This document shows, one piece after another, positions 20,563 to 25,218 of a stretch of 64,000 nucleotides of DNA; the stretch's first letter is position 1, and each line of letters opens with the position of its first letter. The position numbers and the translations under genes are program-made. The notes under the pieces are model-generated. The model saw only the letters and a program-made list of their open reading frames with translations, had not been told where the DNA came from and ran no database searches. Source of the stretch: Rhodococcus aetherivorans (lineage in GTDB: Bacteria > Actinomycetota > Actinomycetes > Mycobacteriales > Mycobacteriaceae); the NCBI RefSeq assembly GCF_011058165.1, contig NZ_JAALEG010000002.1, forward strand, positions 62,001-126,000, given 5' to 3'.

Positions 20563-23053
<2,491 letters not shown>

Positions 23054-23062
23054 GTTCGGCAC

Positions 23063-24031
23063 GTGCCAGACCACTCACCCGGCGACCCCGGCTCGACCCC
23101 CCGCGACGGTTCCGACGTGACCGCCCGCGACGGTTCCGACGTGACCGCCCGCGACGGTTCCGACGTGACCGCTCGCGGTCGTGCCGCCCTGCTCGGTCCC
23201 GCCGAGGTGCGCGCCCTCGCGGAGGAGTTCGGGGTCCGGCCGACCAAACAACTCGGCCAGAACTTCGTGCACGACGCCAACACGGTGCGCCGCATCGTCT
23301 CGGTCGCCGGCGTGGGCCGCGACGACGTGGTGCTCGAGGTCGGCCCGGGCCTCGGCTCGCTGACGCTCGCCCTGCTCGACGTCGTCGACCGCGTCGTCGC
23401 CGTGGAGATCGATCCCAGGCTCGCCGAGCGCCTGCCCGCGACGGTCGCCGACCGCGCGCCCGACCTCGCCGGGCGGCTCGACGTCGTCCTGAAGGACGCC
23501 ATGCGGGTGTATCCGGCCGACCTGCCGGCCACCCCGACGGCGCTCGTCGCGAACCTGCCCTACAACGTCGCGGTGCCCGTGCTGCTGCACTTGTTCGCCG
23601 AATTCGACTCGCTGCGCACGGCTCTGGTGATGGTGCAGGCCGAGGTGGCCGATCGGCTCGCCGCCGAACCCGGGAGCCGCGTGTACGGCGTGCCCAGTGT
23701 CAAGGCCGGCTTCTTCGGCCACGTCCGTCGCGCCGGGTCGGTGGGCCGGGCCGTCTTCTGGCCGGTGCCCCAGGTGGAATCCGGGCTGGTGCGCATCGAC
23801 CGCTACGCCGAGCCGCCGTGGCCCACGGACGAGGGGCACCGCCGCAGGGTATTCGCCGTCGTCGATGCCGCATTCGCGCAGCGCCGCAAGACGCTGCGGG
23901 CAGCGCTGAGCGGCTGGGCCGGTTCGGCCGCGGAGGCCGAGCGACGCCTGCTCGCCGCCGGGATCGATCCGTCGACGCGGGGGGAGAAGCTGGACGCCGC
24001 TGCCTTCGTGCGGATCGCCGCCGCGCAGTGA
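23063..24031 (+). CDS. rsmA: 16S rRNA dimethyladenosine transferase RsmA/KsgA
   Basis: SAM-dependent dimethylation of A1518/A1519 in 16S rRNA, a late step of 30S assembly. The 322-residue protein shows [18 protein letters not shown], motif [15 protein letters not shown], motif [15 protein letters not shown] and the catalytic [14 protein letters not shown] non-conserved N-terminal extension of about 40 residues contains RDGSDVTA three times, encoded by a 24-bp tandem repeat. Each repeat supplies an in-frame GTG, so the true start could be GTG 23063 or any of these later GTGs. It lies in the conserved rpfB-rsmA-ispE order, though csp and WYL genes are inserted before ispE. Confidence 0.93.
23102..23173 (+). 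repeat. 24-bp in-frame tandem repeat, three copies, in 5' end of rsmA
   Basis: Units 23102-23125, 23126-23149 and 23150-23173 are identical except for the last base of the third. Each encodes RDGSDVTA, and copy number can change without a frameshift. Confidence 0.95.
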
Positions 24032-24110: not shown

Positions 24111-24298
24111 TGTGCTCTACTGGTACACGGTCGTTAGGTAGTGTGTTCGTGGTTTACCCCTCGCACATTTCTAGTTGCGAGCGGATGCGAAATTCCCACG
24201 GAATCCTTCTCAGCCGTCGAGTGACAGGCCCGGACGACGTCGTGTCGTTCGACGAAAGATGAAGGCCGCACGGCTTTCCGAGATGTATGAGGTTGAAA
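24111..24298 (+). promoter_or_regulatory. Structured 5' leader of cold-shock gene 1
   Basis: A promoter-like TGTGCTCTACT is followed by CGGTCGTTAGGTAGTG and a leader shared with the second csp gene. Predicted stems are: CTCGCA/TGCGAG (24160-24165 with 24176-24181, 10-nt loop); a 12-bp stem at 24215-24226 with 24243-24254 (two G-U pairs, 16-nt loop); and GAAGGCCG/CGGCTTTC (24261-24278) just before the GAGG ribosome binding site. The copy at 24762 keeps these stems with compensatory changes. Long structured leaders control csp mRNAs by temperature in E. coli; the same role here is inferred. Confidence 0.7.
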
Positions 24299-24505
24299 AT
24301 GGTTGAAGGTACCGTGAAGTGGTTCAACGGCGAAAAGGGCTTCGGCTTCATTGCCCCCGCCGACGGCTCCGCGGACGTCTTCGTGCACTTCTCCGAGATC
24401 CAGGGTCGCGGCTTCCGCACCCTCGAGGAGAACCAGCGCGTGAGCTTCGAGGTCGGCCAGGGTCAGAAGGGCCCGCAGGCCACCGGCGTCACCGTCATCG
24501 GCTGA
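24299..24505 (+). CDS. cspA: Cold-shock protein, first copy
   Basis: Single-strand nucleic-acid-binding OB-fold protein of 68 residues, an RNA chaperone. RNP1 KGFGFIAP and RNP2 VFVHFSEI are intact. The ATG at 24299 ([11 protein letters not shown]) is the standard Csp start; GAGG lies about 7 nt upstream. The coding sequence is identical to the second copy except for two bases, which change IQGRGF to IQGGGF. It has its own leader and a strong terminator, so it is monocistronic. Confidence 0.97.
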
Positions 24506-24761
24506 CGTAGGTCGAACGCTCGCTGCGCGTTCCCCGGGCAGGTGCCTTCTCCGACGGCCTCGTGAGGTCGTCGTGGAAGTGCCGCCGTGAGAGGTGCATC
24601 CGAGCAGTGAAGAGGGGCCGGTCCGCAGGGACCGGCCCCTCTTCGTGTCGGTGGGCCGGCGTCGTCGTATCCGGGCGTCGGCGTCGTGTCCTGCGAAAAC
24701 GTTTCGGCACAACGCTGTTTCGTGGCAGTTCCGGCTATATCACTGGCGGTGCGGGCGCCGA
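24506..24761. other. Spacer between the csp genes
   Basis: Apart from the terminator at 24609-24644, I see no gene here. The part from about 24700 probably holds upstream elements of the second csp promoter. Confidence 0.5.
24609..24644 (+). terminator. Terminator of cold-shock gene 1
   Basis: A perfect 16-bp stem (24609-24624 with 24629-24644) with a GCAG loop, about 100 nt after the csp stop. It lacks a long U-tract. Confidence 0.8.
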
Positions 24762-24947
24762 TGTGATCTACTTGCACTCGGTCGTTAGGTAGTGTTCGTG
24801 GTTCACCCCTCGCGCATTTCTGGTCGCGAGCGGATGCGATAGCCCACACGGAATCGTTTTCTACCGTCGAGTGACAGACCCGAGCGGCGATGTGTCGCTC
24901 GACGAGTGGGGAAGCCTGGTGCTTCCCGAATCTTCTTAGGAATGAAC
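24762..24947 (+). promoter_or_regulatory. Structured 5' leader of cold-shock gene 2
   Basis: Second copy of the csp leader. Stem 1 is CTCGCG/CGCGAG (24809-24814 with 24825-24830): the last pair is G-C where copy 1 has A-U, and the loop is again 10 nt. Stem 2 (24865-24876 with 24893-24904, 16-nt loop) has one G-U pair where copy 1 has two. Stem 3 is GGGAAGC/GCTTCCC (24909-24915 with 24921-24927), different in sequence but in the same place. Confidence 0.7.
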
Positions 24948-25154
24948 ATGGTTGAAGGTACCGTGAAGTGGTTCAACGGCGAAAAGGGCTTCGGCTTCAT
25001 TGCCCCCGCCGACGGCTCCGCGGACGTCTTCGTGCACTTCTCCGAGATCCAGGGCGGCGGCTTCCGCACCCTCGAGGAGAACCAGCGCGTGAGCTTCGAG
25101 GTCGGCCAGGGTCAGAAGGGCCCGCAGGCCACCGGCGTCACCGTCATCGGCTGA
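24948..25154 (+). CDS. cspA: Cold-shock protein, second copy
   Basis: 68-residue OB-fold cold-shock protein with RNP1 KGFGFIAP and RNP2 VFVHFSEI. It differs from the first copy only by Gly for Arg in IQGGGF. The ATG at 24948 has AGGA 6 nt upstream; the ATG at 24942 is too close to that site. Leaders have diverged more than coding regions, which fits conversion or strong selection on the coding part. Convergent with the WYL regulator. Confidence 0.97.
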
Positions 25155-25171
25155 CACACCCGCCTCACCGG

Positions 25172-25218
25172 CCGGATGTCACACGAGTTCGGTTCGATCG
25201 AATACGTGTGACATCCGG
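25172..25218. terminator. Bidirectional terminator between csp 2 and the WYL regulator
   Basis: A perfect 14-bp stem (25172-25185 with 25205-25218) encloses a 19-nt loop that holds a TTCGATCGAA palindrome. It lies between converging genes. Confidence 0.75.

Follow-up and report, generated by a model that had tools for sequence, protein, structure and literature searches.

Introduction

Structured leaders that control csp genes are best known from enterobacteria, where the cspA mRNA carries a conserved box, the cold box, near its 5′ end; the leader is represented in Rfam by the cspA thermoregulator family, RF01766. In other bacteria, Csp protein binds single-stranded pyrimidine-rich RNA, and in Staphylococcus aureus it reportedly acts on the leader of its own cspA mRNA, as Caballero is said to have described in 2018.

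Among the actinobacteria, a csp leader has been detected by RNA-seq for cspA (cg0215) of Corynebacterium glutamicum, at 186,328-186,508 (181 positions), and was termed a putative RNA thermometer through a match to RF01766 (PMC3890552, in its accessible part). For Mycobacterium tuberculosis, a small RNA, ncRv3648c, is reportedly co-expressed with cspA (PMC8628891), and cspA itself appears with a value of 199 in a table of exponential-phase transcripts (PMC3207917), in the parts of both papers that were available. No description of the leader analyzed here was found in the accessible literature, including the available parts of PMC4046766, PMC11188477, PMC9274095 and PMC3890534, a corpus in which subscription journals are thinly represented.

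Results

The tandem csp pair and its two leaders

The window, by which we mean the whole stretch of 64,000 nt from Rhodococcus aetherivorans that was analyzed, belongs to a genome of 6.43 Mb in 216 contigs. On its + strand a ksgA-like gene (23063-24031) is followed by csp copy 1, csp copy 2 and, farther on, by an ispE-like gene (Table 1), the names of both neighbours being those that we take them to bear from recognition of their sequences. Of the 207 nt of the csp genes two, which are adjacent, differ between the copies, as against 47 of 174 aligned columns in the leaders; this disparity suggests gene conversion within the coding part, by which the two coding sequences are probably kept alike. 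In 16 orthologues from the genus, 8 to 16 of 204 bases, third positions mostly, differ from csp copy 1, and four more csp-like matches are found elsewhere in the window's own genome.

The copy 1 leader, used as a DNA query (E <= 0.001), matched 18 of 18 genomes of the same genus, a count that includes its own, and 0 of 43 others. A csp gene lies downstream of the leader in all 16 loci L009-L024, while at locus L008 the contig stops within a few bases of the expected csp start codon, as a collapsed repeated csp gene in the assembly would give. In that genome a single leader was matched; it is 96% identical to the copy 1 leader, and the duplication therefore seems, from sequence comparison, older than the split between the two genomes. 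Of the named relatives in the scan Rhodococcus phenolicus (L026) ranks best, with 97% protein identity; since L026 and L013, the latter from a genome of the same genus, have identical leaders, L026 was left out of the genus counts.

A second tandem duplication adjoins the csp pair at 20829-23052, where two genes, presumably rpfB-like, lie 1140 bp apart and the duplicated blocks are 84%, 79% and 71% identical. Four members of the genus (L177, L183, L185 and L188) have a third csp gene with a match to the leader model described below; about 44-70 kb separate this match from the one at the locus orthologous to that of the window.

Table 1. Features of the csp pair and its leaders (window positions)
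Feature	Position	Strand	Remark
Extended −10-like element, copy 1	24111-24121	+	TGTGCTCTACT; motif TGnTnn[AT]nT
Conserved 5′ box, copy 1	24129-24152	+	Putative RNA 5′ end
Hairpin A, copy 1	24160-24181	+	
Stem 2 of the first-pass annotation, copy 1	24215-24254	+	12 bp; alternative pairing, unconserved in relatives
Conserved linker, copy 1	24220-24230	+	AGUGACAGGCC; ahead of hairpin C
Hairpin C, copy 1	24231-24251	+	Conserved covarying helix; 8 bp, loop 5
Hairpin D, copy 1	24261-24278	+	
csp gene, copy 1	24299-24505	+	68 aa
Inverted repeat 3′ of copy 1	24612-24641	+	Possible terminator, no T run; by eye, without flag in terminator scan
Extended −10-like element, copy 2	24762-24772	+	TGTGATCTACT; motif TGnTnn[AT]nT
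Conserved 5′ box, copy 2	24780-24801	+	2 nt shorter
Hairpin A, copy 2	24809-24830	+	
Stem 2 of the first-pass annotation, copy 2	24865-24904	+	Alternative pairing
Conserved linker, copy 2	24870-24880	+	AGUGACAGACC
Hairpin C, copy 2	24881-24901	+	
Hairpin D, copy 2	24909-24927	+	
csp gene, copy 2	24948-25154	+	68 aa
Long inverted repeat 3′ of copy 2	25172-25218	+	Possible terminator; by eye, without flag in terminator scan

Layout of the leader and its promoter-like element

The first-pass annotation, made from the letters of the window, had described two tandem csp genes with similar leaders of about 185 nt. From the 5′ box to the ATG we count 170 nt for copy 1 (24129-24298) and 168 nt for copy 2 (24780-24947), near 185 with the promoter, in agreement with that description. 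Throughout the family the order is a box, GGYCG..UUYUGUGUUCGUG, then hairpin A (stem 1 of the annotation), GRCC with hairpin C, and the csp gene. Family-wide counts refer to a set of 80 leaders, obtained from 107 by removal of nine that were misaligned or boxless and then of leaders more than 97% identical; two of the 80 (L010 and L019) begin upstream of the true box, owing to a fuzzy search.

A motif TGnTnn[AT]nT, resembling an extended −10 element, ends 4-12 nt 5′ of the box in 47 of the 80 leaders as against 1.9% in shuffles, at a spacing of 6 or 7 nt in 46 of those 47, and is missing in the other 33. Because this element stands just 5′ of the box, transcription would start at, or a few bases from, GGYCG, and a start 3′ of stems 1 and 2, the case named in the annotation as speaking against its own reading, is made unlikely. 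A plain sigma-70 scan, which demands a −35 hexamer, found no site.

The claim that the unpaired parts differ freely fits some regions only. In the 18-leader alignment described below, free variation is indeed seen over the last 26 columns (1 invariant), in the region of hairpin D (0 of 26) and in the loop of hairpin C (0 of 6); in contrast, the stem-1 loop (9 of 10), the 5′ box and following bases (22 of 31) and the linker (11 of 14) are near-invariant. The arms of stem 1 are invariant at 10 of 12 columns and those of hairpin C at 5 of 16. Box, linker and hairpin A loop are thus conserved above the hairpin C arms, as expected of a binding site. An upstream reading frame from a conserved GUG was considered and rejected, as it runs for 16-66 codons in seven leaders with scattered stops and no sign of conservation. 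In nine members of the genus (L014 and L017-L024) a palindrome like GTGATCnnnnTCAC lies upstream of the −10 element; it resembles a CRP/GlxR site, and is absent from both window copies, L009 and L010.

Hairpin C and the alternative stem 2

The whole-leader folding energy is not exceptional relative to shuffles (z = −0.49 for copy 1 and −1.50 for copy 2), so that stability by itself is no evidence for a fold. Alignment A2 covers 17 loci with 18 leaders, the two of the window included; L008, with no csp on its contig, was kept out. The three-stem fold of the first-pass annotation includes a stem 2 of 12 bp, which needs CGUCGAGUGACA to be paired. Hairpin C uses the same 3′ arm as stem 2 and a nearer 5′ arm (CGGACGAC/GUCGUUCG and CGAGCGGC/GUCGCUCG).

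It is hairpin C that the comparison favours. In A2 (columns 106-113/120-127) 95.1% of its 144 cells are paired, and double-sided changes occur at five of the eight pairs, in 17 cells. Its covariation score, 0.423, was reached by none of 500 shuffles, and the helix slid to other registers gave 0.055 to 0.148. The helix sum of 43.3 compares with −0.09 (sd 6.3) under a tree-based null, custom-made with 200 replicates, none of which was as high; placed on the tree, about 4.6 pair-to-pair double changes are counted versus 1.3 single changes that break a pair. Between the two window copies, all four substitutions in the arms keep pairing, and the G-U to G-C change that the annotation had reported in stem 2 becomes, within hairpin C, a fully compensated change from A-U to G-C. 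Stem 2, in contrast, has 65.3% of its A2 cells paired, no double-sided change and a helix sum of 0.0, which 166 of 200 tree-null values equalled or exceeded; the first three pairs of stem 2 are invariant and are therefore uninformative either way. Thus, the equal loops and the G-U to G-C change noted for stem 2 are real, whereas stem 2 as a conserved helix was drawn with the wrong 5′ arm.

The fold with the 12-bp stem 2 lies within the predicted minimum-energy fold of both copies, and in the window's own genome the longer stem is predicted to be more stable than hairpin C (−13.3 vs −11.7 kcal/mol at 37 °C in one comparison, −18.6 vs −14.0 kcal/mol in another); the related leader L008 has all 12 bp as well. 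However, the full 12 bp are found in none of the 16 other A2 leaders, whereas hairpin C is kept in nearly all A2 leaders, both window copies included, and we regard the three-stem fold as very improbable as the working structure here.

A hairpin following the GRCC motif is found in 78 of the 80 leaders of the family-wide set. Setting aside the two leaders without it, six in which it exceeds 34 nt, and identical arm pairs leaves 60 distinct arm pairs, in which 92.7% of the first eight positions pair as against 60.9% with the arms swapped (0 of 2000 swaps as high), although the hairpin and, where there are several, the GRCC site were picked by folding, which favours pairing. The best hairpin at this site has a mean of −14.0 kcal/mol, compared with −5.3 for shuffled tails, a control that covers the choice of hairpin but not that of the GRCC site. 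In the window, hairpin C of 8 bp follows within 0-3 nt of GGCC in copy 1 and of GACC in copy 2. A closing helix between GGYC at the 5′ end and GRCC was also considered. The counts (U-G 43, U-A 24, C-G 6, C-A 3), uncorrected for phylogeny, lend it weak support and it is not claimed; the C-A cases (L127, L128 and L131) use a GACC upstream of the GGCC that precedes the hairpin, and were judged to be mis-registered.

At the level of single pairs, an all-pairs scan of the family-wide alignment of 80 leaders found no column pair at E <= 0.1 against a custom null, and many of its top pairs are non-standard and look like differences between clades. Nor does any single pair pass in the scan of the genus, in which the best, 137-154 (G-C in 12, A-T in 6; E = 0.175), falls in the hairpin D region. 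The covariation check proposed in the annotation therefore comes out in favour of hairpin C as a whole helix, above the tree-based null, and yields no single pair, so that the case rests on that helix as a whole. With this qualification, the claim that the fold of the csp leader RNA is under selection holds up as far as sequence comparison goes, through hairpin C across many genomes and not through stem 2 or the one pair of paralogues that had been cited.

The same results bear on a reading in which conservation acts on the DNA, as a promoter with its initially transcribed region, and the RNA fold is a by-product. The strongest sequence conservation does fall in the first transcribed bases next to the −10 element, and the failure of single pairs in the all-pairs tests is compatible with such a reading. 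Yet hairpin C, some 100 nt downstream, varies in sequence and keeps pairing, which conservation at the DNA level leaves unexplained; we consider this reading hardly credible.

Hairpins A and D

Hairpin A has arms CUCGCA/UGCGAG in copy 1 and CUCGCG/CGCGAG in copy 2, with a loop of 10 nt in both. Stem 1 of the annotation is thus borne out, including its equal loops and an A-U pair that closes the loop in copy 1, with G-C in its place in copy 2. The double change is the single one for this stem in A2, is confined to copy 2 and, by this comparison, represents one event within the genus. In an alignment of 71 distinct rows, which was fitted to the structure and contains three chance rows (L139, L140 and an antisense match in L103), 77.2% of 766 cells are paired (the outer pairs in 60.2% of cells) and the covariation score is 0.199, versus 0.149 for shuffles (0 of 500 as high) and 0.027-0.075 for slid registers. 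Two of five measures, double-change pairs (195/500) and further pair types (79/500), did not exceed the shuffles. On the smaller MAFFT alignment A3 the support is weaker, with 75.3% of cells paired, a value reached by 127 of 500 shuffles, and a covariation score equalled by 18 of 500.

An outer helix, UCGUGG/CCACGA, around hairpin A was dropped because its register, inspected by eye, varies across species. Also by eye, a candidate hairpin B may form between a pyrimidine arm and a purine arm 3′ of hairpin A, and in Mycobacterium CUCGCAGGA may pair either with UUGCGA or with UCCUGCGAG, in candidate hairpins that are mutually exclusive.

Hairpin D, stem 3 of the annotation, lies directly 3′ of hairpin C in 18 of 18 A2 leaders, with very unlike sequences. 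The tails behind hairpin C measure 44-52 nt in the 13 window-locus leaders of the reduced set and all fold at −8 kcal/mol or better; in 59 other leaders they measure 22-35 nt and four reach that value (L100, L101, L103 and L104). The statement that stem 3 differs in sequence but still pairs is accordingly correct for orthologues of the window locus and fails for 55 of the 59 other leaders. As a terminator, hairpin D was flagged in copy 2 only, by a scan that gave two sites where 1.1 were expected, and was rejected in that role.

Hairpins near the 5′ end of an mRNA can protect it, and the leader might mainly set the decay of the mRNA or, through processing or early termination, yield a small RNA of its own. 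The C. glutamicum cspA motif and ncRv3648c, both in small-RNA data of relatives in the accessible parts of the sources, are in keeping with such a role. A U/C-rich sequence after hairpin D, however, is seen by eye in copy 2 only, so that a terminator is not conserved, and we find this alternative rather improbable.

Distribution of the leader in relatives

For wider searches we used a model, R1, of the 5′ part of the leader (box and hairpin A), built from 25 sequences that include both window leaders; their scores of 58.7 and 49.0 bits, relative to a chance level of about 32, are those of training members and hold by construction. The own genome gives nine R1 matches in total. Three are strong, all csp leaders and all training sequences; the next (24.2 and 20.6 bits; L109 and L110) overlap unrelated ORFs, the weak matches L111-L113 are without csp, and all of these were discarded.

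When 80 csp loci of named genomes were scanned, box and hairpin were visible in many, and 52, of which 19 are training sequences, matched R1 at E < 0.0001; six of 53 regex matches were judged false and left out of the counts. The matching genera are Rhodococcus, Nocardia, Mycobacterium, Corynebacterium, Amycolatopsis, Umezawaea, Lentzea, Kibdelosporangium, Actinophytocola and Antrihabitans; Rhodococcus belongs to the Mycobacteriales, Amycolatopsis and Lentzea to the Pseudonocardiales. At csp loci of Gordonia, Williamsia, Tsukamurella and Kocuria, R1 gave 13.7 bits at most or no match. Larger searches matched 28 of 197 genomes of the class (E <= 0.001; own genome and csp-less L139 and L140 included), 81 of 151 of the family (E <= 0.0001; own genome and csp-less L206 included) and 10 of 296 of the phylum (E <= 0.0001; own genome included), of which eight, all in the window's family, are left after csp-less L211 and L212; as these searches use stricter filters, a genome without a match may still carry the leader.

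The link to csp is close. A csp gene follows directly on both window leaders and is present at 94 of 99 loci with an R1 match, namely L114-L141 (class), L142-L170 (family), L211-L212 (phylum) and L171-L210 (40 lower-scoring matches of the family search). The other five are weak, at 25.7-31.5 bits, a range in which other R1 matches do have csp. In the 29 loci L142-L170 the csp start lies within about 200 nt of the match, whereas for L171-L210 csp was scored anywhere in a stretch of some 460-556 nt. We conclude that the window leaders are very probably members of a conserved csp leader RNA. Its presence before many csp genes of the relatives suggests an undescribed RNA control element.

Comparison with RF01766 and the C. 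glutamicum leader

The window leaders resemble RF01766 in being long, structured leaders of csp mRNAs and in having, like the enterobacterial cold box, a conserved box near the putative RNA 5′ end. At the gathering score, a search of the whole window against Rfam found no match except a tRNA, so that the family is not in Rfam at that score, and the copy 1 leader alone gave two matches, with E values of 6 and 9.7, neither to RF01766. Leaders with their genes scored 31.5 and 32.6 bits against RF01766, far below its gathering score of 78, in alignments that start at 24239 and 24878, at hairpin C, and run mostly over the coding part. In 11 relatives' loci there were nine sub-threshold matches, each extending into the gene; the top score among relatives, 64.3 bits, belongs to L028, a boxless csp.

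The leader of C. glutamicum cg0215 is likewise an actinobacterial csp leader, and the Corynebacterium loci L079, L080, L085 and L105 match R1 at 19.4 to 46.6 bits. In the accessible text it is assigned to RF01766, with no box, hairpin C or family described (PMC3890552), our comparison being one of descriptions. The statement in the annotation that no equivalent had been described in actinobacteria stands in that none was found in Rfam or in the accessible literature, and is tempered by this partial precedent.

Discussion

The explanation that we favour as a whole, and on balance consider probable, is that csp mRNAs in Mycobacteriales and Pseudonocardiales begin with a conserved, structured 5′ leader RNA, of which the window carries two copies. 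Comparison between genomes supports a conserved box, a hairpin C kept by compensatory change, a link to csp and a promoter-like element, and we infer that the leader RNA is selected for control of csp expression. Its layout would comprise the near-invariant box at the 5′ end, hairpin A, whose loop is constrained, and GRCC directly before hairpin C, to which orthologues of the window locus would add hairpin D.

By analogy with Csp proteins elsewhere, Csp may bind its own leader, at the box and the open loop, and so tune translation or decay of the csp mRNA, in a negative feedback that would relax once cold-stabilized RNA titrates Csp. Such autoregulation through the box and the hairpin A loop is a possibility that we take seriously without quite expecting it; the likeness of the S. 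aureus cspA leader to this mechanism is by analogy only. More tentatively, the leader could be an undescribed, widespread cis-acting RNA, an independent actinobacterial counterpart of the enterobacterial cspA leader, in which the box and hairpin A loop bind Csp and hairpin C, possibly closed by GGYC/GRCC, gates the ribosome-binding region. If so, it would represent a second, apparently independent solution to the control of csp by a leader, comparable with that of enterobacteria and spanning csp genes of Rhodococcus, Nocardia, Mycobacterium, Corynebacterium and the Pseudonocardiaceae, and the box, hairpin A and hairpin C offer a defined target for tests of autoregulation and of the cold response in a harmless host.

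The first-pass annotation had drawn an analogy with E. coli cspA, according to which the leader would be a thermosensor that refolds on cooling and exposes the ribosome-binding site. The leader is long, structured and heads cold-shock genes, its C. glutamicum relative has been termed a putative RNA thermometer (PMC3890552, accessible part), and in the predicted fold of copy 1 the 5′ arm of hairpin A pairs with the GAGG that precedes the start codon. However, this pairing is missing from the predicted fold of copy 2, and across the 80 leaders the Shine-Dalgarno sequence has a mean predicted openness of 0.49 at 37 °C as against 0.46 at 10 °C, so that equilibrium folding predicts no opening in the cold and the analogy is not upheld at that level. 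A switch between leader and Shine-Dalgarno sequence was also rejected, since the duplex energy is −11.47 for own and −11.10 for swapped partners (p = 0.094, 80 leaders); the selected pairing expected of a thermometer that masks the Shine-Dalgarno sequence was thus not found. Moreover, the exponential-phase value of 199 for M. tuberculosis cspA indicates that a relative is not silent without cold (PMC3207917, available part). We therefore hold a thermosensor of this kind to be unlikely, and favour the conserved leader RNA set out above.

A different csp leader type is seen at the boxless csp loci of Mycobacterium, Mycolicibacterium and Williamsia (L028, L037, L043, L049, L082, L092, L095, L096, L098 and L102), which share GA(G/A)AGAAG directly before the start codon.
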